From a virus, in the IMG/VR virus record IMGVR_UViG_3300027872_000007, positions 1 through 54,595 of that record: 54,595 nucleotides of DNA; one strand, written 5' to 3'. Position 1 is the stretch's first letter. Each line of letters opens with the position of its first letter. Positions 13,346 through 45,231 of the stretch are shown here, in pieces. The position numbers and the translations under genes are program-made. The notes under the pieces were generated by a model, which saw only the letters and a list, made by a program, of their open reading frames with translations, ran no database searches and was not told where the DNA came from.

Positions 13346-15898
13346 CTATGGTAAATCCACAATTTTATTCGGCTCGAATCTCACGCCAACCGTCAATCCA
13401 GCGGATGTTATCACGCCAGGCGTTCGGAAGAACTTAAAACCCTTTAGCCGCACTCTTGTCTCTACGTTGGTATCACTGACAAAATTGAAAGTTGCATCGG
13501 TGAATGTACCAGCCGCGTCAGTCGTTCCTTGCGTAATCAGCGTTCCAGCCGGATCGTTTTGAATCCGAACTCTTGCCCCCTGCACAGCATTGCCATCTGG
13601 ATCGTTCACCTGCACTGTCAACGTCACGGTGTTGTTGACAATGGTCGCGCCATTCAAGGTAGACACCGATGGGGTGTCGCCACCTTGCAGCACATTGATG
13701 ATTGCAATCGCACCAGTACGCAGCTCGAAGATCGCATCGGTGCCCCCAACCGCAGTCCACACTATCGGAACGGCATTATCCCCCGTGGCAAAGTTGCCAG
13801 CGTGAGTTGGGGCTGACGTGTCTGTACCTACATTAACGATATTCACAGCCGTTCCAGCCGTGTACTCAATGGTCAGCACGTACTTGGTCGTGTTCACCAA
13901 TAAGAACTCGTCCCGGAACTCGAAGTCCGTCATCGTCAACACACCGTCGAGCGTACTCACGTCAAGCGTCTCGGACGTAGCCAGAGCCACACCTGTCGGT
14001 TCACTGTCAGTACCAAACGTGCCTGTGTGGGCATACAGTTTGGCTACCGCCGTGCCGGTCGGTGATGCTGTCTTGCTGAGCATGAACTGGGCACGAGATA
14101 GCGTGTTGCCATCGCCGGTCACACTTTGGGCATAGCCGTGATTCACATCATTCAGAGGGCTGGTCGCGCTCTGGTTCGCAATACCGTAGCTGTCAGTGAC
14201 GGTTGCAACGCCAGAATTGAGAACATCAAAGGTGTTGCCAGCAAAGGTGATGTTGCGAAAGTTGTAAGTGATCTTGCCGGTGAGTGTTGGTCGTAACTGG
14301 ATGCCATTGATACAGTTCTGCACAGCAACGTCACGGAAGCTGTCAGTGGCTGGATCAGCATCACCAAGGTCGATCGCAGCATTCTCCGCTGCTGCCAAGC
14401 CTGCGATCACGTTACACTTGCGAAACAACGCTCCATTTCTAATCCTGATGATCTCGAAGTTAGTTATGGTGCAGGAGATCATGTCAGCGTTGGCCTGCTC
14501 CAGATTGATTCGTCCACCCGTATCTACTCGAACGAATGTGCCAGCGGCTGTTAATGTTCCTCCAGCACTAACAGTATCCACTCGAATACGAATGAAGTAG
14601 TAAGCAAGCGAGCCGTTGACAGTCGTGGTCGCCCAATCAGAAGGTATTTCCCATCGCGGTTTCTTAACACCTGTACTCTGGAAGTCCAGTCCGGCATCCG
14701 TAAGCTGCGACAAAACCACCCACGAGCTGCCGTTCCAATACTCATATACGACAGTGAACGTACCATTATTCGCTTGCGCCACATTATATTCAGCGTTACT
14801 GAACGGGAAGTCATGCCCAATGTAATTCGCATCATTCACCGTTGCAGGTGACTCTAACATTACAGTAGCGTTTGGGCTGCCTGATACCGCATGTAACGTC
14901 TCGTTTGTAAACACACCCCCATTGTCTAATTGGTTATTACGAAATGTATCTACCGCCAATGCTGCTGGACCCAACAAGGTACATCCATAGAAAGCCACCG
15001 CAATATCGGCATCCGTCGCAACCACATTGAACGGCACCAACCCAGCCGATAAAAATGAATTACCAGACACACCTACTGCGGTGATGCCACTGCCAACCAA
15101 CGTACCGAAGGTGGCTGCATTCGTGCCTGTGCCACCAATAAACGATAGGACGTGGAAACTGGTCGCAAACGCTCCATCTTGAAACACCCAGACCTTATTG
15201 CTGTCCTCGAAGGTGCTGTTGGTAGCTGCGGTGACATCACCAATGACTATGCCGCCAAGAATATAAAACACACCGTTGATGTCAACAAACGTGCCACGAC
15301 CGGCAGTTGCATCAGCCGCTGCAATCTCAAGCGCGCCACGCGGAGTGGCAGCACCACCAGTCACCGTGATGCCAGACAAGATCTTTAGTTCATCAAGGAA
15401 AAAAGTATCACGAGATGATGCCGTCTGATGGTCAGCTAAGAGTGCAAATGCCCTGGCATTTGCCATCAGATTACCAGCACTATTGAACTGATGGTTAGGG
15501 GATAGCGGGTCAGCACAGAAGCAAAAGAATCCGTTAAATACATTGCGTGTCGTGTTGTTATCACCAACATTGATTTCTTGGTACAAAGTGGCAGCACCAT
15601 TAACCGTAGACCATCGGATACGCCAGCCCTGCCCGGCACTTGATACGTTATCGAGTGATCTCCCCCAAATCAAAATATGCTTGCCTTCAATGTCAAGGAC
15701 GCCCCCGAAGTCGTCACCAACACCACCAAGGTCAGCAGCCGTGACACGCGCTCGCCATGAGTTCGTACCCTGTGCCTTGATGTCAGGATCAAGTGCGCTT
15801 GGGTTATTCACCCCAGTACCAACATTGAAGCGTGACGCATCCAACGCATCACACGTATTGATGATCGTCTGATCGTTAGCGGCGACGGAAATTGCCAT
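13346..15898 (-). CDS. Large tail appendage protein, 850 aa
   Basis: Beta-rich, Asn/Thr/Gly/Asp-rich. Around residues 370-450 it has an FTVVYEYWNGSSWVVLS module with IPSDWATTTVNG, also present in the 372-residue gene at 25259-26377. Near 770-800 there is an Ig/carboxypeptidase-regulatory-like stretch (VQGARVRIQNDPAGT, TTDAAGTF). The final residues (RLKGFKFFRTPGVITSAG to VDLP) match the end of the 1038-residue neighbour. The start codon overlaps the preceding stop by one base (TAATG). Probably a tail fibre or receptor-binding appendage; receptor unknown. Confidence 0.8.
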   Translation of the reverse strand: MAISVAANDQTIINTCDALDASRFNVGTGVNNPSALDPDIKAQGTNSWRARVTAADLGGVGDDFGGVLDIEGKHILIWGRSLDNVSSAGQGWRIRWSTVNGAATLYQEINVGDNNTTRNVFNGFFCFCADPLSPNHQFNSAGNLMANARAFALLADHQTASSRDTFFLDELKILSGITVTGGAATPRGALEIAAADATAGRGTFVDINGVFYILGGIVIGDVTAATNSTFEDSNKVWVFQDGAFATSFHVLSFIGGTGTNAATFGTLVGSGITAVGVSGNSFLSAGLVPFNVVATDADIAVAFYGCTLLGPAALAVDTFRNNQLDNGGVFTNETLHAVSGSPNATVMLESPATVNDANYIGHDFPFSNAEYNVAQANNGTFTVVYEYWNGSSWVVLSQLTDAGLDFQSTGVKKPRWEIPSDWATTTVNGSLAYYFIRIRVDTVSAGGTLTAAGTFVRVDTGGRINLEQANADMISCTITNFEIIRIRNGALFRKCNVIAGLAAAENAAIDLGDADPATDSFRDVAVQNCINGIQLRPTLTGKITYNFRNITFAGNTFDVLNSGVATVTDSYGIANQSATSPLNDVNHGYAQSVTGDGNTLSRAQFMLSKTASPTGTAVAKLYAHTGTFGTDSEPTGVALATSETLDVSTLDGVLTMTDFEFRDEFLLVNTTKYVLTIEYTAGTAVNIVNVGTDTSAPTHAGNFATGDNAVPIVWTAVGGTDAIFELRTGAIAIINVLQGGDTPSVSTLNGATIVNNTVTLTVQVNDPDGNAVQGARVRIQNDPAGTLITQGTTDAAGTFTDATFNFVSDTNVETRVRLKGFKFFRTPGVITSAGLTVGVRFEPNKIVDLP

Positions 15899-26391: not shown

Positions 26392-27078
26392 TTAATTTCT
26401 AGCGTCGTTTCCGAAACCGTCCGCTGTGAAGTCAGGGATGTAGTACAGAACGATGTCCTCGACGCCATCCAGAGCCACCGCAGGATCATACGTTCCTCGA
26501 CGATCACCAGTCGTATTCGTAACCGGCTTGGTCTGATCAGCAACAACCAGCGTTCCAGCATCAGCCGCGCCTGTCGAGCCGACCAGCGTGTGCAATCGAT
26601 CAAAAAGATTTAGCAGCCTGGCATCAAGACCCAGCACATCGGTTGTACCAACAGTCAGGTTGCCGGCCAAGATAACGTCCACCGAGATCGCTGTCACCGT
26701 TTTGAATGCCTTCAGTCCTGGCACTGCGGTTAAGCCGTTCAGGGCGATGTCTTCAACCACTGCTGCACCAGCAATGTCGGTGCCAGTAACGGTCACGATC
26801 TGAGTCGTATCACCGGCATTCGAGCTGTCAACCAAAATCCCCCTGGCGACATCAAGAGTAGCAACTCCGGCAACGGCCAAAACACCATCGAGAGGCACGT
26901 CACCGAGCGGCGTGACAGCCGCTATTACCAAGCCATCCACGTCGCCAATGATTGCATTGGCAATAATAAGTCGATGAACCAAAGCAAGAGAAACGCCACG
27001 TTGCGCGCCGTTCAAGGCATTGGATTGCCCAGCCCCTGCAAAGTGTTCGTCTGCATGTGTAATCGTATGTCTGCTCAT
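26392..27078 (-). CDS. Capsid-associated structural protein, 228 aa
   Basis: Starts MSRHTITHADEHFAG with an AGGAGG ribosome site. It is beta-rich and Val/Ala/Asp/Thr-rich, with the fragment DVARGILVDSS...IVTVTGTDIAGAAVVEDI and LKAFKTVTAISVD. That pattern recurs in phage head decoration-type proteins. It is the first gene after the major capsid protein and a putative terminator, so its level may be set below that of the capsid. Confidence 0.65.
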   Translation of the reverse strand: MSRHTITHADEHFAGAGQSNALNGAQRGVSLALVHRLIIANAIIGDVDGLVIAAVTPLGDVPLDGVLAVAGVATLDVARGILVDSSNAGDTTQIVTVTGTDIAGAAVVEDIALNGLTAVPGLKAFKTVTAISVDVILAGNLTVGTTDVLGLDARLLNLFDRLHTLVGSTGAADAGTLVVADQTKPVTNTTGDRRGTYDPAVALDGVEDIVLYYIPDFTADGFGNDARN

Positions 27079-27188: not shown

Positions 27189-28100
27189 CTACGCGCCACC
27201 TGGCGAGCCGTAAGCACCGCGCCAGTCGGACCAGCCGAAGCTGTACCGCTCGCGAGCCTTGTAGCGAAGATTGCCGGTCTCGAAGTCGCCCTCGATACCA
27301 CGCGAGATCTTCTTACGAAGCATGTGCTTGAGCCCATCAGGACAGTCCGTCTTGAGAGTCCACTGGTCGGGATCCGTCAGGCGGTGATTCACGCAGAATC
27401 CGTCGCCCACGGTGCCGAGAGTGTAGATGGCGCTGATGTCGTTATCGCCAGTGTTCGTGCGATACGGTGACATCAAGATCCGCGTTGCCACGAATTGCAA
27501 CTCCGTTGGGAGAATTAGCTTCGTGATCTGCGCTGCGATCGGAATGCCACGGTCGTCATCGAACTCTGAGATGTCGATCGCTGCCTGTTCCAGTGATGCC
27601 TCTGCAAGGTCGGCTGCTGTCGCCAGGGTATTCGCCTGGACACCGCCGCCGAACTGCGGATGGCTTGCTGAGAACAACGGTACACCGTCGCCGCCAAGAA
27701 AGAGGGCGTCGAAGCCGTTGTTGACAATATCAGCACCCTTAACTTCTTTGGTGTGCTGATGTGAACGTGCAAGGGCACGAGCATACTTGTTACCCAATGA
27801 CCCATAGAGTCCGTCTTCCTCGGCTTCCTCAGTGATAGCGAACGCCAGAGCGATCGTCTCATGAGTGTACCGAGCAACGTAACTCTCCGCGCCCTGGTCG
27901 TATGCAACGCCTTCACCTTCGGGCTTGACTGGTGCACCTGCGAACCCGGCGAGCAACACGTCTTCCTCGAATGCTTTCATCGATCGCTCGATGTCGAAGA
28001 TTTCGCGCCACTCCTCTGGATACCGCTTGTACTCCATGCCGAAGACGGCGTTTAAGCCTTCTTGCAGTTGCTTGCGAAAGTCGCTTCGATTCATTGCCAT
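27189..28100 (-). CDS. Major capsid protein
   Basis: 303 residues, matching a well-known major head protein family of HK97-like fold. Signatures are FRKQLQEGLNAVFGMEYKRY at residues 8-27, EEDVLLAGFAGAPVKPEG at ~45-62, the ITEEAEEDGLYGSLGNKYA segment, HTKEVKGADIVNNGF, and the C-terminal FGWSDWRGAYGSPGGA. ATG 28100 has a GGGAG ribosome site. Preceded by a probable decoration protein and the scaffold, as expected. The N- and C-terminal motifs recur in tiny genes at 43.8-44.6 kb; bases 28041-28066 are repeated exactly at 44521-44546. Confidence 0.93.
   Translation of the reverse strand: MAMNRSDFRKQLQEGLNAVFGMEYKRYPEEWREIFDIERSMKAFEEDVLLAGFAGAPVKPEGEGVAYDQGAESYVARYTHETIALAFAITEEAEEDGLYGSLGNKYARALARSHQHTKEVKGADIVNNGFDALFLGGDGVPLFSASHPQFGGGVQANTLATAADLAEASLEQAAIDISEFDDDRGIPIAAQITKLILPTELQFVATRILMSPYRTNTGDNDISAIYTLGTVGDGFCVNHRLTDPDQWTLKTDCPDGLKHMLRKKISRGIEGDFETGNLRYKARERYSFGWSDWRGAYGSPGGA
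28041..28066 (-). repeat. 26-bp exact repeat, capsid-gene copy
   Basis: Plus-strand block beginning GAAGACGGCG and ending CTTGCA is identical at 44521-44546. Here it encodes LQEGLNAVF of the major capsid protein. The two copies lie 16.5 kb apart and both are read on the minus strand in the same frame. Confidence 0.97.
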
Positions 28101-30439: not shown

Positions 30440-30859
30440 TCAAAGAGACATGCAATCGAACGCTTCGGGCGTTTCCGTCACACAAAGAAGTTGCGTATCG
30501 GAAATGACCACCCAAAGGGTGCCATCCTGCGTCCGAAACTTCTCGCCGTCATGCTTTCCAAACTGCACCCAATCGCCAACGACGCATCCGTGCGCCTGCA
30601 TCAACTTCAATTGCGATCGGGTAACCGCTTGAAAACACAACGGTCCCATGTCCCTAACCATGCCAACGTAAGTACTGAACTCCCTTTGCTCCAGATACTC
30701 ATCCGGCATCTCGATACCACCAGCAGACATCTTTGGTGGCTCCGGGATCTGCACCGCGATGCGCCACAAATCGATCTTCCCTGGGTAGTTCTTTTGTACA
30801 AACGTGTCCAGCAGTGTTGCTGGCGCCTGCGCATCTTGCGCCTCAGCTTCGCTATTCAC
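30440..30859 (-). CDS. GroES-like co-chaperonin
   Basis: 139 residues from GTG 30859, chosen because GGAGAGGAGG lies 6 bases upstream; a TTG at 30889 is the only longer option. The fold is Cpn10-like: WRIAVQIPEPPKMSAGGIEM matches the first strands and the mobile-loop region with GGI-x-P, followed by YVGMVRDMGP, GCVVGDWVQFGKHDGEKF and a final VVISDTQLLCVTE (GD-V-F and D-LL signatures of GroES). Phages such as T4 (gp31) use such a protein with host GroEL to fold their coat protein. It lies in the head operon. Confidence 0.75.
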   Translation of the reverse strand: MNSEAEAQDAQAPATLLDTFVQKNYPGKIDLWRIAVQIPEPPKMSAGGIEMPDEYLEQREFSTYVGMVRDMGPLCFQAVTRSQLKLMQAHGCVVGDWVQFGKHDGEKFRTQDGTLWVVISDTQLLCVTETPEAFDCMSL

Positions 30860-31052
30860 CTGTTTCCTCCTCTCCTTCAACCTGCTCAAGAAACTCGCGA
30901 GTAATCTCCATGATCCAGCGAAGTTCGGCGTTCCTGCCGACCAACTTCATGTACTGATCATGCGGCACACCTTTGTCCATGTTGGCGTGATTCTCCGCGA
31001 GACGTTCCTTGGCTCGATTGAGGACGAGTTCTGCAATCCTAAGTGCAGACAT
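30852..31052 (-). CDS. Small acidic helical protein, 66 aa
   Basis: MSALRIAELVLNRAKERLAE start with AGGAGC ribosome site, fully helical, ending in acidic EQVEGEEETGE. The end of this gene supplies the ribosome site for the GroES-like gene, with an 8-base overlap, so the two are translationally coupled. Function unknown. Confidence 0.7.
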   Translation of the reverse strand: MSALRIAELVLNRAKERLAENHANMDKGVPHDQYMKLVGRNAELRWIMEITREFLEQVEGEEETGE

Positions 31053-31443: not shown

Positions 31444-31605
31444 TTACCCTTTATCTGCTTCAGCAGCAATCACCGACAATCGGAACTGCTGCTGACCTTG
31501 ACCGCCAGAGTATAACCGGGAGATCAGTCGTAGCAAACTCCGGAAGCCCATGTTGAGTTCCTTGGCTGAATTGGCAAACTTGCGCGGCGGGATGTCAGAT
31601 GACAT
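31444..31605 (-). CDS. Small head-module protein, 53 aa
   Basis: ATG 31605 (MSSDIPPRKFANSAKELNMG) has AAGG upstream; a longer reading from 31728 overlaps the next gene and reads as noise. A helical FRSLLRLISRLYSGG and a final QQQFRLSVIAAEADKG. Lies downstream of the portal. Family not recognised. Confidence 0.55.
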   Translation of the reverse strand: MSSDIPPRKFANSAKELNMGFRSLLRLISRLYSGGQGQQQFRLSVIAAEADKG

Positions 31606-31648
31606 CGCACCTTGTCCGCGCAGGAATGCCCTCGCTGCACGAACCTCT

Positions 31649-31804
31649 TTAGGACTCGCCAGTGCCAAGTTTCTTCCTCGCTTTCCGACGCTTCTCACGA
31701 CGATCCTTCTCCACGGCTTCGATCTCATGCGCCGTTTTGCGGATCTGCTTGCGCACCTTCTCTGCCGGCGATGGCTTCGGTGCGTCAGTCTTTTTGTCAG
31801 CCAT
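31649..31804 (-). CDS. Small charged helical protein, 51 aa
   Basis: ATG 31804 overlaps the portal stop by one base (TAATG). MADKKTDAPKPSPAEKVRKQ followed by a Lys/Arg/Glu-rich helix (EAVEKDRREKRRKARKK). Likely translated only by coupling to the portal gene. Possible nucleic-acid or capsid-interior contact; unproven. Confidence 0.6.
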   Translation of the reverse strand: MADKKTDAPKPSPAEKVRKQIRKTAHEIEAVEKDRREKRRKARKKLGTGES

Positions 31805-34290
31805 TACTTTTTCCTCTTGCGCTGTTTGCTGGTGCTGCTTTTCGGTGCGCTCACTGGCCCCTTTCCGAACGTGGCTTGAGCATGAGCTTTCTTGTCCAGG
31901 CGGCGAACTTCGGCTCTCGATTCTTTGTCCTTGCGTTTTTGCTCGGCATCGGACTCCTTGTCGAGCCGCTTCTTCCCGGCATCGGATTCTTCGTCTTTCC
32001 GATCGATGCCAGCTTCTGTCTCAGCTCTACCACGCTCGATCTTGCCAATGGTCTCCAGGTCAGCCTCGTCTTCGAGGCGCTGTTGCTCGTCCTGCTCGGC
32101 CTGTTCTTCAGGCGTCTTCGCAGGCGGTGGCGGTGGTCGCAGCTTCTTGGCCACGGCCTGACTGATCAATTGCTCAAGCTCAGGTGGAAGGTCCTCGTTT
32201 TCACTTGGATCGTCCAGGTTAATGTATGGGAGTTGCGTACCCAGCTCGGCCTCGACTTGCTGCCGATACAGATACGCTTTGTGTTCCATGACGTGCGCCT
32301 GAATCACCGGCTCCAGGTTCGCTACCAGGTCCGGGTTCTCCGCGGCCTGGGTCTCTGCAAAATTCATGTGCACAGCGACGTGCGCTTGATGATCCTGAAG
32401 GGGATACACGGTCGCCGCGGCGCCGGTCATGAAGCCCATGTTCTCGCTCACTGGATCCAGCGGTGCATCGCTCTCCTCCGGCATGATCTGATCGACATCC
32501 GGAATACGAAGGGCTTCGAGCATGCGTCGATGCGCAATCTTTTTCTGCTTCTTCGGATACAGCTCTGGAGCCGCGGTGATCAGTTCCAGGATTGCCTGGT
32601 TCTGCGCGATGCGCTGCGTTGATGACCAGATGTTCGGATCCGATACCGGGATGATGTCCACGCGGCCATCGAAATCCTGTTTCAGGATCTTGCGCTCCTC
32701 GCCCTGGACCTCGTAGGGATACTCGTCCACGTCCATGAACTCGTAGTTCAGCGTGGCCATCATCTTGAACTCTTGCCGCGCCGAGACGTGCATGCGCTTG
32801 TGGATGCCGCTGAACACCTTCGAGCCCTGTTCTATGAGCGCCAGAGTCGTGCCAACGGGCCCGGTGTTCGAGGCATCACCGATCATGTTCTCAGTGGTGG
32901 TGGCAAAGCGCCGGCCTTCCTTGACCAACGTCTCAACAAGGGTAGCGAGAGCTGTCGATGGCTCTTTCACCGGCAGGTTGAAGAACGCCTTCTCCAACTC
33001 GTCGGCAGACATATCGACATCGATCCACTCGCCCGGAGTGAAACGTATCTCCCCGGCAACCTTGGCTTCCTTGGATTTGAATCCACCCTGTAGGTTTGCC
33101 ACCGAGGCACTATCAAGCAGGGCACGAATGCCACCACTGACTGCCTTCGCAAGTGAGCCAATTATGTGTAGAAGCCCAAAACCGTAAAAGCCAAGGCCGG
33201 GGAGATACTTGTAGTGGGTGAACCAGATGCGCTTCTTCATCAGCTCGTCGTCGTGCTTCCAGTTGCGACGAACTGCCAGGACCTCGCGAGACTCAGCCTC
33301 GACCGTGACGATGTACGGTGGCGCTATGTCGGAGTTTTCGTCCCATGGCATGTGGTAATCGATGTGGTATTCGAGGATCGTGTAGATCGTGTCATCGTAA
33401 TGTTGCTGCGGCGAACGATCGTCGGCCACGTCCTCCATGTCGTACCGGGAAAAGCTGGTGTTCTTATCGACGATGATCTGCGGTGTCGGCACTAACCGTG
33501 CATCCTCGATGAATGATCCCGCCTCCTGGGCCCGATAAACATCATTCTCCGGCATTTCGTACTTGTGACAATACCGCGGCGCGTTCGCAAGAGTTCGCGC
33601 ATGGTAGGGAACAATAAAGTCCTCTGCGGTCACAAAGCGTGATGTCGTCATGCCGGTGATCGGGTCGATGTAGACTTTCTTGAAAGCCGAACCTGATAAG
33701 GGAAGGTAGAAAAGCATCTGGTCCGTTGACCAGTAATACTCCTCATCGGCTTCCGTGAGCTGGTAGTTCATGTAGTCAGCGAGTCGCTCACCCTGCTCTA
33801 CCTTCTCGTCGGTCGCCTCGCCCATGATGTAAGGCTTTACCGGGCCCGAAGGCGGGAAGAACTCCTCAATCGCTCGCGCCTGGAACTGCGTGGTGGCTTC
33901 AGCGATGAGTGGATGCTGGACCGTGGCCGCACCCTTGAACGGTACATCGGATGCTGGCTCGTCCGTCAGGCCCATAAGCCTGAGTCCATCAGCCAGCCGG
34001 TTGAAGTGTTCTTCGCGAACCTGCTCATCGATCTCGTAGTACTCGATCAGCTCATCCGCGATGGCCATGCGTTCTTGAGCAGACAGTTCCTCGGCTAGAT
34101 TGTCGTTCCAACCGTCAGGCGATGCTTCGTCATGATCGATGTCCGCGTATTCAGCGATCTCACCTTTCGGAATCACTGAAATGGTTCCGTCATCGTTGTG
34201 GCGAATGACGTTCTTTTCAGTGTACTGCTCGGCCTCCTTGAAGGTCGGCATCGTCTTCATTGTCGAAAGCAGATCTGCTCTAGCTGCCAT
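31804..34290 (-). CDS. Portal protein (P22-like)
   Basis: 828 residues from ATG 34290, which has GGGAGG 6 bases upstream; an extension to 34302 lacks a site. Signatures are RLADGLRLMGLTDEPASDVP, FKGAATVQHPLIAEA, QARAIEEFFPPSGPVKP, a long YWSTDQMLFYLPLSGSAFKK helix-strand region, and the clip/stem region (GLGFYGFGLLHIIGSLAKA). The C-terminal ~110 residues are a charged coiled coil (DRKDEESDAGKKRLDKESDA), as in portals with a barrel extension. It forms the dodecameric DNA channel at the packaging vertex and binds the terminase. Confidence 0.9.
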   Translation of the reverse strand: MAARADLLSTMKTMPTFKEAEQYTEKNVIRHNDDGTISVIPKGEIAEYADIDHDEASPDGWNDNLAEELSAQERMAIADELIEYYEIDEQVREEHFNRLADGLRLMGLTDEPASDVPFKGAATVQHPLIAEATTQFQARAIEEFFPPSGPVKPYIMGEATDEKVEQGERLADYMNYQLTEADEEYYWSTDQMLFYLPLSGSAFKKVYIDPITGMTTSRFVTAEDFIVPYHARTLANAPRYCHKYEMPENDVYRAQEAGSFIEDARLVPTPQIIVDKNTSFSRYDMEDVADDRSPQQHYDDTIYTILEYHIDYHMPWDENSDIAPPYIVTVEAESREVLAVRRNWKHDDELMKKRIWFTHYKYLPGLGFYGFGLLHIIGSLAKAVSGGIRALLDSASVANLQGGFKSKEAKVAGEIRFTPGEWIDVDMSADELEKAFFNLPVKEPSTALATLVETLVKEGRRFATTTENMIGDASNTGPVGTTLALIEQGSKVFSGIHKRMHVSARQEFKMMATLNYEFMDVDEYPYEVQGEERKILKQDFDGRVDIIPVSDPNIWSSTQRIAQNQAILELITAAPELYPKKQKKIAHRRMLEALRIPDVDQIMPEESDAPLDPVSENMGFMTGAAATVYPLQDHQAHVAVHMNFAETQAAENPDLVANLEPVIQAHVMEHKAYLYRQQVEAELGTQLPYINLDDPSENEDLPPELEQLISQAVAKKLRPPPPPAKTPEEQAEQDEQQRLEDEADLETIGKIERGRAETEAGIDRKDEESDAGKKRLDKESDAEQKRKDKESRAEVRRLDKKAHAQATFGKGPVSAPKSSTSKQRKRKK

Positions 34291-34303
34291 ACAACCTCCC
34301 ACG

Positions 34304-36107: not shown

Positions 36108-36371
36108 TCAGTCTGGGTCGCCGTGGAAGTCTGCGAAGTATCGTTTGTTGAGCCAGCTATTGAACCATCGCTGCATCCACAGGATGTCGCGCTTCTCCAT
36201 GTCCGACCAAGCACAGTCGAGAGTGTAACTGTCGTCTTTCGCATCCCGCTTATTGGTGAGGATAATCACGTCATCAATCTCGCCACGCTCTGCTTGTTGA
36301 AGCGCATGGCGCAGCGTTCGCACGGCGTCATACTCACCGACTGGCAATTCTTTCACGTTGTCATGCGCCAT
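36108..36371 (-). CDS. Small protein after terminase, 87 aa
   Basis: ATG 36371 (MAHDNVKELPVGEYDAVR) lies 11 bases inside the terminase stop and has GGAAG upstream. Middle strand/helix text (LRHALQQAERGEIDDVIIL) followed by two Trp-rich helices. The pattern LxxALxxxExGxxxxVxxL also appears in the 117-residue protein at 46112-46465, so both may share a small alpha/beta fold. Function unknown. The 103-base gap that follows (36005-36107) shows no gene. Confidence 0.65.
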   Translation of the reverse strand: MAHDNVKELPVGEYDAVRTLRHALQQAERGEIDDVIILTNKRDAKDDSYTLDCAWSDMEKRDILWMQRWFNSWLNKRYFADFHGDPD

Positions 36372-37953
36372 AGAACTTCCTTGGCTGGCTGAACAGCGCC
36401 AGCTCATCGTCCTTCTCATCGTCAGGTAAGTCGATCAAGCCCATGCGCCGGATATACGCGAGCAGCATCACCACGCAGTCCACCAGGTCGTCATTCTCAC
36501 CGACCGGGAACGTCGCGCACTGATTGATAACTTCGTAGGCCCAGTTCCTGGGGATGTACCACAGCCGGCCATCCTTCAAGATCTGCGCGACCATGTGAGC
36601 CCGGAACACTTTGTCCTTGGACCCAGGCTTCACTCCGCGTATCGAGAGCCCTGCTTTACGCAGCTCCTGAATCAACGAATGACCGCTGGCCTTCTTCTCG
36701 ATCAGCGTCCAGTCAGGATGCCACTCGACATTGTGTCCGATCGCTTCGGTCTTGAGATCTGGGAACTCCACTTTGTCGTTGAACCGCTCCAGCATCAGAG
36801 CATGAACAGCCATGTCCTGTTCTCGACCGCTCTCCGAATACTCGAACAGACCAGCAGTGATCCTCGCGGAGCAGTCGTTCTCCTCGTCGGTCTCGAAAGC
36901 CGTGTCGTACACGGAGATGACCTCAGTGAACTCCGGCATTGGCATTGGCTTGCCGGCGTACTGATGGTCCTGCGGATAGCACCACTGCTTCCACCACTTC
37001 TTCTTCAAGATCAGGCCACCACCGGACGTTGGATCTTGGTTCATCTGGGCAGAGTAGTCCCTGACTGACATGGCCTTGCGCTCAGCCTTGACCTCCTCCT
37101 GGCCAAAGCGTTGCTCGTTCAGCAATTCGCCCTTCTTCTCCCTTGGGTCCTCGAATATCGCACCTTCCTTGGTCTTATGTCCCTTGCCGGCATTGAAGAA
37201 CGTGATGCAGTGCCTGGCTGGATCGTATTCCATCGGCAGCATCAGCACTTCCCATCGCTCGTCCTCGGTCATGAGGATGTGGCCGAACAGGTCAGCATCG
37301 TGCGACCGCTGCCCGATCAGGACCTTCTGCCCAGTCGTCGGATCATTGAGTCGCGATCGCAGTGAGTTGTCCCAGGCTGACAGTGTGCTGTAACGAATCA
37401 GGTCGGAGTACACGTCCGACATATTGTGCGGGTCATCGATGATGATCTTATCGCCGCCTTCGCCAGTGACCTTGCCCAGGATCGAGCCTGAGATGCGATG
37501 ACCACCGTGATTGTTGACGTAGCGATTCTTGCGATTGTCCGATGGATCCAGGTAGAACGTGTCCGCGTACCGTTCTCGAAACCAGGCCGACTCGATCAGC
37601 CGGCGAGACTTGACTGCATCTCGGATGGCCAGCTCCTGAGCGTAAGAGGCGAACAGGAACTGCACTCCTGGATCCAGTAGCCACTCCCACACCGGCCACA
37701 ACACACTCGCGGTCAGACTCTTGGTCTGCCGCGGTGGGATATTGATCATCAAATTGCGAATGTCACCGAACGTGACATAGGCGAGGTGGTCACAGATAGC
37801 GTCCAGGTGCCAGTTGTTCTTGAACTGCTTCGGCTCTACGACCGGCCAGGCAACGGCAACGAACTCTCTCAGATCTCTCCGATAGAACTCGGCTTGGGCT
37901 TGCGTGAGTTGCTTGGATACCGCTTCTTGAACGCTGAGTGCATCCGCGACCAC
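36361..37953 (-). CDS. terL: Terminase large subunit
   Basis: 530 residues from GTG 37953 with GGAG upstream. The ATPase has a variant Walker A (NIPPRQTKSLTA, residues 71-81) and Walker B (IIIDDP, D172-D173). The nuclease part shows VYDTAF (D349), IEKKASG (E418) and ENDDLVD (~486-491), fitting the RNase H-like metal site. It cuts concatemers and pumps DNA into the prohead through the portal. Its partner small subunit lies about 10 kb upstream, which is unusual. Ends 11 bases into the 87-residue gene. Confidence 0.92.
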   Translation of the reverse strand: MVADALSVQEAVSKQLTQAQAEFYRRDLREFVAVAWPVVEPKQFKNNWHLDAICDHLAYVTFGDIRNLMINIPPRQTKSLTASVLWPVWEWLLDPGVQFLFASYAQELAIRDAVKSRRLIESAWFRERYADTFYLDPSDNRKNRYVNNHGGHRISGSILGKVTGEGGDKIIIDDPHNMSDVYSDLIRYSTLSAWDNSLRSRLNDPTTGQKVLIGQRSHDADLFGHILMTEDERWEVLMLPMEYDPARHCITFFNAGKGHKTKEGAIFEDPREKKGELLNEQRFGQEEVKAERKAMSVRDYSAQMNQDPTSGGGLILKKKWWKQWCYPQDHQYAGKPMPMPEFTEVISVYDTAFETDEENDCSARITAGLFEYSESGREQDMAVHALMLERFNDKVEFPDLKTEAIGHNVEWHPDWTLIEKKASGHSLIQELRKAGLSIRGVKPGSKDKVFRAHMVAQILKDGRLWYIPRNWAYEVINQCATFPVGENDDLVDCVVMLLAYIRRMGLIDLPDDEKDDELALFSQPRKFYGA

Positions 37954-42817: not shown

Positions 42818-43291
42818 TTAAACGCCTGGATTCCAATAAGTGTTGCGATTGTCTCCTGGCAATAGATCATCGACAGTCCATTCACTGTCGTCGAAGGTTT
42901 CGTCCTTGCTCAGTATCAAGCCGAACTCTCGCGCCAAATCCGCGAGCTTTTGCTGACCATAGAACTTTTCGTCATCAGGTCCGATGGTCAATCGTCTGGG
43001 TATGTTACCTACATCCAGGATAGCCTTGGTGGCGTCCTGAAGTGCCGCCTCGCAGATGTCTGCCGGCGTATTCGGCTCGATGATATTGCCGATACCGGGT
43101 TTAGCCGTCTTCATCTCCACACCAAATTCTGCTAGTTGGCCATCGATCTGCTTAGTGAACATATTCATCGCTCCAGCAAAAAACGATTTCCAAGCACAGT
43201 CGTTGATTTTTTCAGCTACACGCTTCAGGCGATTGAATCCGCCAACTACATTTTGTCGGGCAATTAAGACATCGACATCAAGTTTGCTCAC
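42818..43291 (-). CDS. Hypothetical protein, 157 aa
   Basis: GTG 43291 with AAGGAAAAGG upstream; it overlaps the stop of the membrane microprotein by 3 bases. N-terminal helices (VLIARQNVVGGFNRLKRVAE) followed by a mixed region and an acidic end (SKDETFDDSEWTVDDLLPG). No known motif. The longer reading to 43435 was rejected because it covers the microprotein in another frame. Confidence 0.6.
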   Translation of the reverse strand: MSKLDVDVLIARQNVVGGFNRLKRVAEKINDCAWKSFFAGAMNMFTKQIDGQLAEFGVEMKTAKPGIGNIIEPNTPADICEAALQDATKAILDVGNIPRRLTIGPDDEKFYGQQKLADLAREFGLILSKDETFDDSEWTVDDLLPGDNRNTYWNPGV

Positions 43292-43386
43292 AGCCTTTTC
43301 CTTGTGATCCACGCCATCACTGCATAGCCAACAATAATTCCCAGCAGCAACGCAATTATGCTCACGCACAAGGTCGGCATGATCAT
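43288..43386 (-). CDS. Membrane microprotein, 32 aa
   Basis: ATG 43386 overlaps the upstream stop (ATGA) and its stop overlaps the next GTG, so it is locked between two genes. MIMPTLCVSIIALLLGIIVG followed by YAVMAWITRKRL gives one membrane helix with a basic C-terminal anchor, inside-facing by the positive-inside rule. Function unknown. Confidence 0.55.
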   Translation of the reverse strand: MIMPTLCVSIIALLLGIIVGYAVMAWITRKRL

Positions 43387-43571
43387 GGCATCTTCCGATA
43401 GCAGTATCTGGCAATCTGATTGATGATGTTGTCACGACCGAGAAGTGTTGCTGGCCGATTCTTTGGCTTCGTTAGCTCGTAGATGTCATCGATGATCTTC
43501 CTGGTGGCTTTCAGCTCGACACGAAGCTCACCCTCGGACATCTTGTCCACGTTTTTAGTGAAAGTGATCAC
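43383..43571 (-). CDS. Small helical protein, 62 aa
   Basis: MITFTKNVDKMSEGELRVEL, a charged helix, then LLGRDNIINQIARYCYRK. It is coupled to both neighbours by 4-base overlaps. No family recognised. Confidence 0.6.
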   Translation of the reverse strand: MITFTKNVDKMSEGELRVELKATRKIIDDIYELTKPKNRPATLLGRDNIINQIARYCYRKMP

Positions 43572-43838: not shown

Positions 43839-44153
43839 TCAATCATCGATGTCGATCCACAACTCCTCCATATTGTCTGGCTCCAGCTCCTCGTACACGT
43901 CACCGAAGGCTTTGTTCAGGCCCTCCTTCAACGCCTTTGGGAACTCAGCCCTAAGCCCTGGATCATACGGAATGCTCGCACCCTCCGGCTTGGCCTGTAC
44001 CAGGCTGAAGCCTCCGGTCAGGTCATGGTGCGCGGCATCGTGTAGCAGAGTTGGATGCTTCATGCTTCTCAGCATCACGCCATCGTCGTTTTTCGGAACC
44101 ACCGCCATCGCAGCAGCGCCAATGAAAGCCTGAATGAATCCGCGTCTGTTCAT
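43839..44153 (-). CDS. Tat-signal protein with capsid-like C-terminal motif, 104 aa
   Basis: ATG 44153 overlaps the previous stop by 4 bases. Residues 1-20 (MNRRGFIQAFIGAAAMAVVP) form a twin-arginine signal, so the protein is probably exported folded. Residues 55-66 (KPEGASIPYDPG) resemble capsid residues 59-70 (KPEGEGVAYDQG), and 71-87 (FPKALKEGLNKAFGDVY) resemble capsid residues 8-24 (FRKQLQEGLNAVFGMEY). The two motifs are in swapped order relative to the capsid protein. Acidic end (ELWIDIDD). Third Tat-signal gene of a coupled cluster. No known function. Confidence 0.7.
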   Translation of the reverse strand: MNRRGFIQAFIGAAAMAVVPKNDDGVMLRSMKHPTLLHDAAHHDLTGGFSLVQAKPEGASIPYDPGLRAEFPKALKEGLNKAFGDVYEELEPDNMEELWIDIDD

Positions 44154-44356
44154 GCCGGCGTTCCATACATGGCTCGGTAATCGATCCACTGAACGTCCAG
44201 GCTGGAATCCATGTTGACCTTAAACTTCATCGCAACGATGTTGGGATCAGCCAATGGACTGAGATCCAGCCTTGGCATCGCAGTCGCCATTCGCATGCCG
44301 ATCGCTACCGTTGCTACTGCGCCGACAAACGCCTTGAGAAATGCTCGTCTTTTCAT
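44150..44356 (-). CDS. Tat-signal mini-protein with capsid-like end, 68 aa
   Basis: ATG 44356 overlaps the previous stop by 4 bases. MKRRAFLKAFVGAVATVAIG is a textbook twin-arginine signal. The body after cleavage would be only ~40 residues (DLSPLADPNIVAMKFKVNMD) and ends QWIDYRAMYGTPA, close to the capsid C-terminus (GWSDWRGAYGSPGGA). The signal is related to that of the 166-residue protein upstream (RRAF, AVATVAI, RMA). Probably exported across the inner membrane. Confidence 0.7.
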   Translation of the reverse strand: MKRRAFLKAFVGAVATVAIGMRMATAMPRLDLSPLADPNIVAMKFKVNMDSSLDVQWIDYRAMYGTPA

Positions 44357-44577
44357 AGACTCAAAAGCCAAAAACCAAATGCAGCAATGGGAGCCATAAT
44401 GAGAAGCGTTCCAACAAACTGGGCGCCCCAATCTGTTTCCATTGGAGGTGAAGCATATCGAGGCTCATGAACAACTGTGTCTCCATACACGCTACGCCAA
44501 TCACTCCAATGACTGACGAAGAAGACGGCGTTTAAGCCTTCTTGCAACTGTTTGCGCGAGAAGTTCTCTTTGCTCAT
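44353..44577 (-). CDS. Capsid-termini/membrane fusion mini-protein, 74 aa
   Basis: ATG 44577 overlaps the previous stop (ATGA). Residues 8-20 (RKQLQEGLNAVFF) equal the major capsid N-terminal motif, including a 26-base identical DNA stretch. This is joined directly to HWSDWRSVYGD (residues 23-33), similar to the capsid C-terminal FGWSDWRGAYG. Residues ~54-74 (FVGTLLIMAPIAAFGFWLLS) form one membrane helix. It looks like a capsid gene with its middle deleted and a membrane anchor added. The reading frame is intact, so it is probably not a decayed pseudogene. Confidence 0.7.
   Translation of the reverse strand: MSKENFSRKQLQEGLNAVFFVSHWSDWRSVYGDTVVHEPRYASPPMETDWGAQFVGTLLIMAPIAAFGFWLLSL
44521..44546 (-). 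repeat. 26-bp exact repeat, mini-gene copy
   Basis: Identical to 28041-28066 in the major capsid gene, in the same reading frame, inside the 74-residue gene. Flanking bases differ on both sides, so the match is a short island. That fits either a recent local conversion or constraint on this motif. Confidence 0.97.
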
Positions 44578-44738
44578 TGCTTTCTTCTCATATCACCGCG
44601 GCCCAATGCCTCCGAGTTCTTCATCTGGAGTCTGTGGCTTTCCCGTTTCGCTTCATTGAACGTGCCGTGGAATTTCGATTCGCCGGTCTCCAGCTCCTCA
44701 ATGAGACGACCACGGCGCTCCCACTTCTGTTCAAGCAT
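44574..44738 (-). CDS. Small charged helical protein, 54 aa
   Basis: ATG 44738 lies 8 bases inside the stop of the 166-residue Tat protein; its stop overlaps the next ATG by 4 bases. MLEQKWERRGRLIEELETGE, then a charged helical stretch ending ALGRGDMRRKQ. No signal peptide, so unlike its neighbours it would stay in the cytoplasm. It could be a partner or chaperone for the exported proteins; that is a guess. Confidence 0.6.
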   Translation of the reverse strand: MLEQKWERRGRLIEELETGESKFHGTFNEAKRESHRLQMKNSEALGRGDMRRKQ

Positions 44739-45231
44739 GCTGGAACATGGCTCCTTTCGACATATAAATCACTGGCATAGCAATCGTATCGTCCATCTCC
44801 TGCATGCCCATTAAAGCACCATGCTCCATTTTATTGATCGACAAAGCCCCCTGACTAATGCTGATGATCTGCGCTGCTTCCAGCTCATCGAAGAACTCAT
44901 CGTTCATGCCGAACTCCTCGATTACTTGATGAGCGACATATCGAGCCCCACGCTCAACATTTCTGAATGCCTGCGTAGCTTTCCGAAGAAGGTCTTTGGG
45001 ATTGATAGGCGTCCATGGATCTGAGTCGAAAATGGCAGCTCTCTCGAAGATCTGAACGTTCCAGGGCTCAGCAGTATCGATGCCATAGTAGTATTTATCG
45101 GTAGCCATCTCGTAACGCCAGGTGCCATCAGCAAGCACCTCCGGAAACTTTGGAGCCATACGAGAGGCAATAGCAACCGTCGCCACGGCTGCCGCCAATC
45201 CATGAAAGAACGCTCTCCTGGTAAGTCGCAC
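44731..45231 (-). CDS. Tat-signal protein, 166 aa
   Basis: GTG 45231 is chosen because GAGGAG lies 8 bases upstream and the Tat signal begins at once (VRLTRRAFFHGLAAAVATVA). Longer readings to 45333 run over the neighbour. After the signal: EVLADGTWRYEMATDKYYYG, a charged helical part (ARYVAHQVIEEFGMNDEFF), and a Met-rich end (HGALMGMQEMDD, VIYMSKGAMFQHA). First of three Tat-signal genes in a row. No capsid motif here and no known family. Confidence 0.7.
   Translation of the reverse strand: MRLTRRAFFHGLAAAVATVAIASRMAPKFPEVLADGTWRYEMATDKYYYGIDTAEPWNVQIFERAAIFDSDPWTPINPKDLLRKATQAFRNVERGARYVAHQVIEEFGMNDEFFDELEAAQIISISQGALSINKMEHGALMGMQEMDDTIAMPVIYMSKGAMFQHA

Follow-up and report, generated by a model that had tools for sequence, protein, structure and literature searches.

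What could a phage gain from short, separate pieces of a major capsid protein (MCP) that are joined to membrane-targeting elements? The question is raised by three small genes on the minus strand of the viral record IMGVR_UViG_3300027872_000007, the whole 54,595 bp of which were analysed (referred to below as the window): m104 (43839–44153, 104 amino acids (aa)), m68 (44150–44356, 68 aa), and m74 (44353–44577, 74 aa). As an earlier, sequence-only reading of this locus had described, the three genes are intact, contain the capsid-like motifs noticed there, and overlap their neighbours by 4 bases (44150–44153, 44353–44356, and 44574–44577). We find that m104, m68, and m74 are true genes whose bodies resemble an HK97-fold MCP, and that they form part of a lineage-specific family of mini-proteins (minis) that are directed to the membrane and in which a leader or a membrane helix (a few members have neither) is combined with one to four MCP-homologous segments, usually in permuted order. 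The findings that are supported directly are (i) the homology, (ii) its MCP specificity in a comparison of 19 gene families, (iii) the recurrence of the genes, (iv) purifying selection, and (v) their absence from related control genomes.

The MCP gene (27189–28100 (−), 303 aa), which represents the source family of these segments, is identified by matches to Pfam Mu-like_gpT (E = 3.5e-6) and to the PHROG ‘major head protein’ (E = 3.5e-17). No solved relative of this MCP was found by sequence; a fold search with its structure model matched HK97-fold capsids despite the low confidence of the model (predicted local distance difference test score (pLDDT) of 44). Seven modules of the MCP, all on the minus strand, are found in the minis: A (27987–28091, residues 4–38, the N-terminal arm, which contains an exact repeat at 28041–28066), B (27891–27953, residues 50–70, KPEG..YD, the E-loop/KPEG region), C1 and C2 (27708–27875, residues 76–95 and 102–131, respectively, the latter, ALARS..QTKE, being a predicted long spine helix), D (27657–27695, residues 136–148, the GGDG..HP loop), E (27564–27623, residues 160–179, ADLSEASLEQ, a further helix), and F (27192–27269, residues 278–303, the C-terminal strand and tail, ERYSFGWSDWRG). 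C1 and C2 are present in minis of related phages and were not found in the minis of the window itself. The segments used by the minis are among the most conserved parts of the MCP. In HK97-type capsids, the N-terminal arm, the E-loop, the spine helix, and the C-terminal strand form inter-subunit contacts. With contact roles assigned from this general knowledge, the segments used would mostly be inter-subunit contact elements.

In m74, a copied 36-nucleotide (nt) block RKQLQEGLNAVF (44521–44556 (−)), which includes a 26-bp exact repeat (44521–44546), is joined to the module F-like HWSDWRSVYG (44482–44511 (−)), identified by motif and module profile, and to a C-terminal hydrophobic helix FVGTLLIMAPIAAFGFWLLSL (44356–44418 (−)) that is shared with the 83-aa mini of the related genome G003 and the F-type mini of contig L243. 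A blastp comparison of m74 with the MCP gives E = 3.9e-5. The WSDWRSVYG of m74 had been read as resembling the capsid C-terminus, and rightly so. Among 16,853 small open reading frames (ORFs; 1.32 million aa), the corresponding motif W.D.R..[YF]G is confined to two, m68 and m74, and the reversed ORFs do not contain it. The A-F fusion seen in m74 recurs independently in genome G014, where it lies at 13703–14395 (+) and is followed by a Cys/His-rich stretch CLLCHRETPHLGHC, with no membrane element. The second gene, m68, has a leader of the twin-arginine translocation (Tat) type and a module F-like C-terminus, VAMKFKVNMDSSLDVQWIDYRAMYGTPA (44153–44236 (−)), that resembles LRYKARERYSFGWSDWRGAYGSPGGA of the MCP and is assigned by the same motif, by the module profile, and by its full-length homologue in contig L241 (53% identity; also L242), in which more of the MCP C-terminus is preserved (IKYKATMRVSGWNNYDWRAVYGTPS, E = 0.026). 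A resemblance of RLDLSPLADPNI in m68 to the HTVC023P portal (E = 0.02) failed the portal profile test and was rejected.

The largest of the three, m104, has a Tat-type leader MNRRGFIQAFIGAAAMAVVP (44094–44153 (−); Pfam TAT_signal 0.022, under the curated cut-off) that precedes three capsid-like modules in the order D-B-A, as opposed to A-B-D in the MCP, so that the swapped order recorded in the sequence-only reading is borne out. The D-like segment DDGVMLRSMKHP (44052–44087 (−)), which resembles GGDGVPLFSASHP of the MCP, is weak alone and reaches E = 8e-6 with a module profile seeded with m104 and other minis. The B-like segment GGFSLVQAKPEGASIPYDPG (43956–44015 (−)), which resembles LAGFAGAPVKPEGEGVAYDQG, has profile matches, and its KPEG..YD stretch aligns with MCP residues 49–70. 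The A-like segment EFPKALKEGLNKAFGDVYEELEPDNMEELWIDI (43848–43946 (−)) is supported by profile and profile-profile matches, the C-terminal third of m104 matching the MCP N-terminal arm (profile A2 against A3) with a probability of 95% and E = 3.7e-8. The best conserved stretch of the m104 family, LLHDAAHHDL (44019–44048 (−) in the window, mean pairwise identity 0.78), is not capsid-derived; it is histidine-rich and perhaps metal-binding.

The signal in the window alone is modest (E = 0.035 for m74 and 0.41 for m104 with an MCP profile), and it is the relatives of the window that settle the homology. A profile of 101 MCPs, searched against all ORFs of 13 genomes, matched non-capsid small ORFs with E-values of 4e-10, 1.1e-9, 5e-6, 1.2e-5, 2e-5, 5.5e-5, 2.5e-4, and 3.9e-4, the best E-value in the reversed-ORF control being 0.84. 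A tblastn search of 50,697 phage records (2.3 Gb, E ≤ 1) with a 99-aa mini found eight records, in which the matches were to MCP genes only, and a 131-aa mini matched 17 records with MCP genes (best E = 1e-8); this mini also has a second, unlabelled match in DSL-LC04, in which a genome profile scan found no capsid-like small ORF. In profile-profile comparisons (hhalign) with the MCP, a set of seven spine-helix minis (A1) scored E = 1.8e-14 and the m104 family (A2) the value given above. Furthermore, Pfam Phage_capsid_4 matches one mini (0.0015). Because the module profiles were seeded partly with the minis, the independent evidence consists of the MCP-only profile, both phage-record searches, and the A1 profile-profile match. 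The sequence-only reading had singled out two points beforehand, and both came out in its favour: homologues in related phages keep or extend the capsid-like motifs, and profile support extends beyond the 26-bp repeat. The homology to the capsid family (Mu-like gpT/Phage_capsid_4) holds for segments only; the minis, with 68–131 aa and one to four segments that are often permuted, do not contain a complete collinear fold of about 300 residues.

A search with m104 led to nine contigs with genes of this kind, which add further capsid segments, and mini-genes were found in about 30 related viral contigs, all of them metagenomic, each mini having one to four of the seven MCP segments, often permuted. 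Four segments are arranged as D-B-E-A (G003–G006) or C1-E-C2-D (L140), three as D-B-A (m104 of the window), D-B-E (L243, L244), or B-C2-C1, and one or two as C1-C2, C2-C1, F alone, A-F (m74 of the window; G014), or F-A (G014). In G003 and G005 all seven segments are present, once each, over three genes, and G004, G006, and L243 come close to this; since these genomes are related and their own segments seeded the module profiles, the pattern counts as one observation and not five. The mini-gene locus is hypervariable between close relatives, and the complement of mini-genes varies. Some mini-genes immediately precede the gene for the terminase large subunit, on the same strand as the head genes. 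In L084, L086, L087, and L085 (G003–G006), several spine-helix minis end in a near-identical SGEGARRSVGVEGSPDRI right before the terminase gene, perhaps owing to constraint from overlapping regulatory DNA. No significant module was found outside the MCP in six control genomes with related MCPs (G016, CRP-901, HTVC023P, GB2A, QDWS535, and DSL-LC04; for GB2A, CRP-901, and HTVC023P the first 49–50 kb were scanned, and one scan also took in the GB2A MCP stretch). A scan of genome contigs found no cellular or prophage carrier of mini-genes.

In nearly all minis, m104 and m68 included, the N-terminus is a Tat-type leader, an RRxF motif with a hydrophobic stretch after it, in keeping with their earlier description as exported or membrane proteins. 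All seven A1 members match Pfam TAT_signal (best 2.7e-4), with displayed scores of 12.6–15.9 bits that lie below the curated cut-off of 22.7. The leaders are putative Tat signals, for which export and cleavage by TatABC would be expected. In the F-type minis of G003, L243, and the window (m74), a similar C-terminal membrane helix takes the place of the Tat leader; neither element is present in the A-F fusion of G014 or in the short F peptides of G005 and G006. Tat-like leaders occur in 21 of the 25 small ORFs that match the MCP with E < 0.1, compared with 187 of the 16,853 small ORFs overall, and three of the four leaderless ORFs are truncated MCPs or lie at contig edges.

The mini-genes are under purifying selection, with pairwise ratios of nonsynonymous to synonymous substitution rates (dN/dS) of 0.13–0.53 over whole genes, leader and body alike (0.30 and 0.21 for m104). 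When profiles of 19 gene families of the window phage were compared with the small ORFs, the MCP was the only family that matched them repeatedly, antisense and fragment frames aside. The portal and terminase profiles, both from longer genes, found no fragments among the small ORFs; profile matches at 31603–32619 (+) and 36430–37065 (+) were discarded as antisense frames or fragments of the portal and terminase genes. The 18 other families yielded a single sense-strand match of comparable strength, for the head gene adjoining the MCP gene, and a general capture of gene fragments was therefore rejected as the sole cause. This match is a Tat ORF of G014 (L015:1457–1879 (+)) that contains part of the protein whose gene follows that of the MCP (the family of window positions 26392–27078), with E = 1.3e-4 against the profile of that gene and 4.9e-7 among Tat ORFs. 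By this match, a second head protein may also be mimicked.

The sequence-only reading had the genes built from the phage’s own capsid protein, and this is so only for the N-terminal block of m74. No other exact direct repeat in the window comes near the length of the 26-bp island shared by the MCP gene (28041–28066) and m74 (44521–44546), the second longest having 17 bp, and the island lies in the same reading frame in both genes. The codon-aligned 36-nt block of m74 is identical at 35 of 36 positions to the MCP gene of L004, a 97%-identical relative, and at 33 of 36 to that of the window, and most other relatives of 92–97% identity have several synonymous differences from it. Judging by these matches, the block is a recent DNA copy from an MCP gene of the window’s phage group. 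For the other modules, the comparison of the C region and its tree led us to reject the idea that they all come from the phage’s own MCP: mini-gene carriers span two MCP lineages (85–97% identical to the window, and GB2A-like), the C2 segment of the minis does not differ between the two and mostly has its closest counterparts in third lineages, and in the tree of the spine-helix region, a coarse test on a short region, the minis fall outside a well-supported clade (0.996) that holds the window MCP. Most modules other than the m74 block resemble other MCP lineages at least as well as their own.

That capsid segments are paired time and again with two different membrane elements speaks for a function. 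We propose, with a probability of roughly 0.4, that the minis are capsid mimics that hinder the head assembly of co-infecting or superinfecting phages. The sequence-only reading had put forward, as speculation, interference with superinfecting capsids and also a sorting of capsids to the membrane. In the mechanism proposed here, the minis would bind MCPs, or the assembly partners of MCPs, through the copied contact segments and so impede other phages that build their heads in that cell; tethering to the membrane would have a concentrating or sequestering effect. Contact segments detached from the rest of the protein are plausible assembly inhibitors, and rival phages as targets fit the observation that the segments often match other MCP lineages better than their own.

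Several points weigh against this proposal. Foremost among them is location. Capsid assembly takes place in the cytoplasm, and a working Tat leader would place the body of the mini in the periplasm, so that display in the cytoplasm should be expected only for the tail-anchored type exemplified by m74. Moreover, m74 copies the capsid of its own phage group and might harm the phage itself. The better similarity to foreign MCPs could reflect retained ancestral residues and the larger number of foreign sequences that were compared, the numbers of own and foreign sequences being unequal. The proportion of 21 in 25 for Tat-like leaders is inflated, as queries that contained Tat leaders had brought in many of the contigs. 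For m104, the structure model is of low confidence (pLDDT 49) and without a fold, and both the binding of minis to MCP and the interference are proposed from sequence.

The minis might instead be directed at the host, as decoys or antagonists that occupy the sensors of capsid-sensing bacterial immunity without triggering them. Such defences exist (CapRel, PMC9712102; a TIR system, PMC11312562), the segments are among the most conserved parts of the MCP, which are the parts that a sensor might be expected to read, and the single occurrence of all seven segments over three genes in G003 and G005 would suit a decoy. We place this explanation second and regard it as unlikely. The capsid sensors that are known work in the cytoplasm, from which a Tat leader would remove the decoy; neither a host nor a defence gene was linked to these phages here; and fragments might equally activate a sensor. 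A broader formulation that spans rivals and host, to which we lend somewhat less credence than to interference with head assembly, is that a coordinated, membrane-directed gene set presents most or all of the conserved capsid segments, acts on rival heads or on capsid-reading immunity, and is renewed by the copying of blocks of capsid DNA.

The mini-genes might also have been born without any capsid-related function, with a leader capturing capsid DNA by short-range recombination and the capsid sequence serving as filler. The sharply bounded, codon-exact, and recently copied block of m74 is consistent with this, as are the hypervariability of the locus and the fact that m74 alone found nothing in viral contigs or the phage collection and has no detected full-length homologue. 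However, the longer conserved portal and terminase genes yield no fragments, the bodies of the minis are under purifying selection, the modules are conserved between phages with different MCPs, and two kinds of membrane-targeting element are joined to them, which makes mere gene birth quite improbable. Even more doubtful is a role in the phage’s own head assembly, with the minis serving, for instance, to attach proheads or MCP to the inner membrane or to stand in for scaffold contacts. Membrane targeting and capsid-like contact segments would suit docking, and some mini-genes are located next to the terminase gene on the head-gene strand; on the other hand, G016, CRP-901, HTVC023P, and DSL-LC04, which have related MCPs and similar gene sets, lack mini-genes, the segments are often not closest to the phage’s own MCP, and the complement varies between close relatives. 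Finally, m104 and m68 contain motifs that, taken singly, have little length or strength, as chance resemblance or an assembly artefact would have it, but this explanation is already refuted, with next to no probability left to it, by independent contigs, profile statistics, reversed-sequence controls, control genomes, and database matches to MCPs only.

Interference with head assembly, the reading that we prefer, would place the minis beside two known systems. Ccm of SaPIbov5, a satellite-encoded homologue of the phi12 capsid protein, redirects the capsid assembly of the helper phage (PMC8569155). Here, too, a mobile element encodes a relative of a capsid protein, which in the case of Ccm perturbs phage head assembly; however, Ccm builds pentamers and is encoded by a satellite, whereas the minis consist of short permuted segments with a Tat leader or membrane helix and are encoded by several genes per genome of a phage that has its own head genes. 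The window accordingly does not fit the definition of a satellite (own head genes lacking), as it encodes, besides the MCP, a terminase (36361–37953) and a portal (31804–34302). Ty1 p22, a Gag-derived fragment and self-restriction factor, blocks Ty1 particle assembly (PMC4599808) and is likewise a capsid-protein fragment made by the element itself, which acts as a trans-dominant assembly inhibitor; it is, however, the collinear C-terminal half of one Gag gene, whereas the minis are permuted mosaics from separate genes with export leaders. The minis share with this class of capsid-derived interference factors the homology to a capsid protein and, in the block of m74, a recent derivation from a capsid gene; binding to capsid protein and a blocked or redirected assembly would be shared if our proposal holds.

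The redirectors CpmB, Rcm, and Sid are also small mobile-element proteins that bind phage MCP and alter its assembly, but they are scaffold-like or unrelated to MCP in sequence (Rcm binds MCP without resembling it, PMC12409344), whereas the minis resemble MCP and are mostly membrane-directed. CapRel immunity, which senses the capsid protein (PMC9712102), would read conserved parts of the MCP of the kind that is copied in the minis; the papers found describe no counter-defence made of shuffled capsid segments, and no sensor is linked to the minis. As for the source family itself (phrog_371/Mu-like_gpT/Phage_capsid_4), the minis retain only a minor part of the capsid fold, and they cannot themselves be capsid proteins. 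Short permuted capsid segments combined with membrane leaders in several genes per genome are not a feature of Ccm, Rcm, p22, or CapRel, and a limited search of the open-access literature found no description of Tat-led capsid fragments in phages.

If capsids are their target, the minis would represent, on the side of the phage, a capsid-derived restriction of the Ty1 p22 and Ccm kind, operating by permuted segments and membrane delivery, and would indicate which segments of the MCP can be attacked by mimicry. If immunity is the target, the minis would reveal the parts of the capsid that sensors read. Either way, gene birth from capsid DNA is caught in the act in m74 beside older, selected members of the family, which makes both the origin and the use of capsid mimicry directly testable.

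Around the three genes, the window contains large late-gene ORFs consistent with a tail module. Upstream of the mini-genes lies a conserved Tat-leader protein gene with a GTG start (44731–45231 (−)), which has homologues in G001, G002, L188, and L241 and contains no capsid-like module; a search of the phage collection found no match for it. A 205-aa gene (42818–43435 (−)), with orthologues of its C-terminal half in G001, G007, and L241 and without any membrane signal, contains an E-like stretch TPADICEAALQDATKAI (43019–43069 (−)) that is not significant in the window but reaches E = 2e-5 in the G001 orthologue and E = 7e-4 in that of L241, making this gene a tentative member of the mini-gene set. 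The product of 30440–30889 (−) resembles a GroES-type co-chaperonin, and annotated GroES genes are located near the MCP gene in CRP-901, HTVC023P, DSL-LC04, and QDWS535. A dependence of the MCP on chaperonin could bear on the action of capsid-like peptides.
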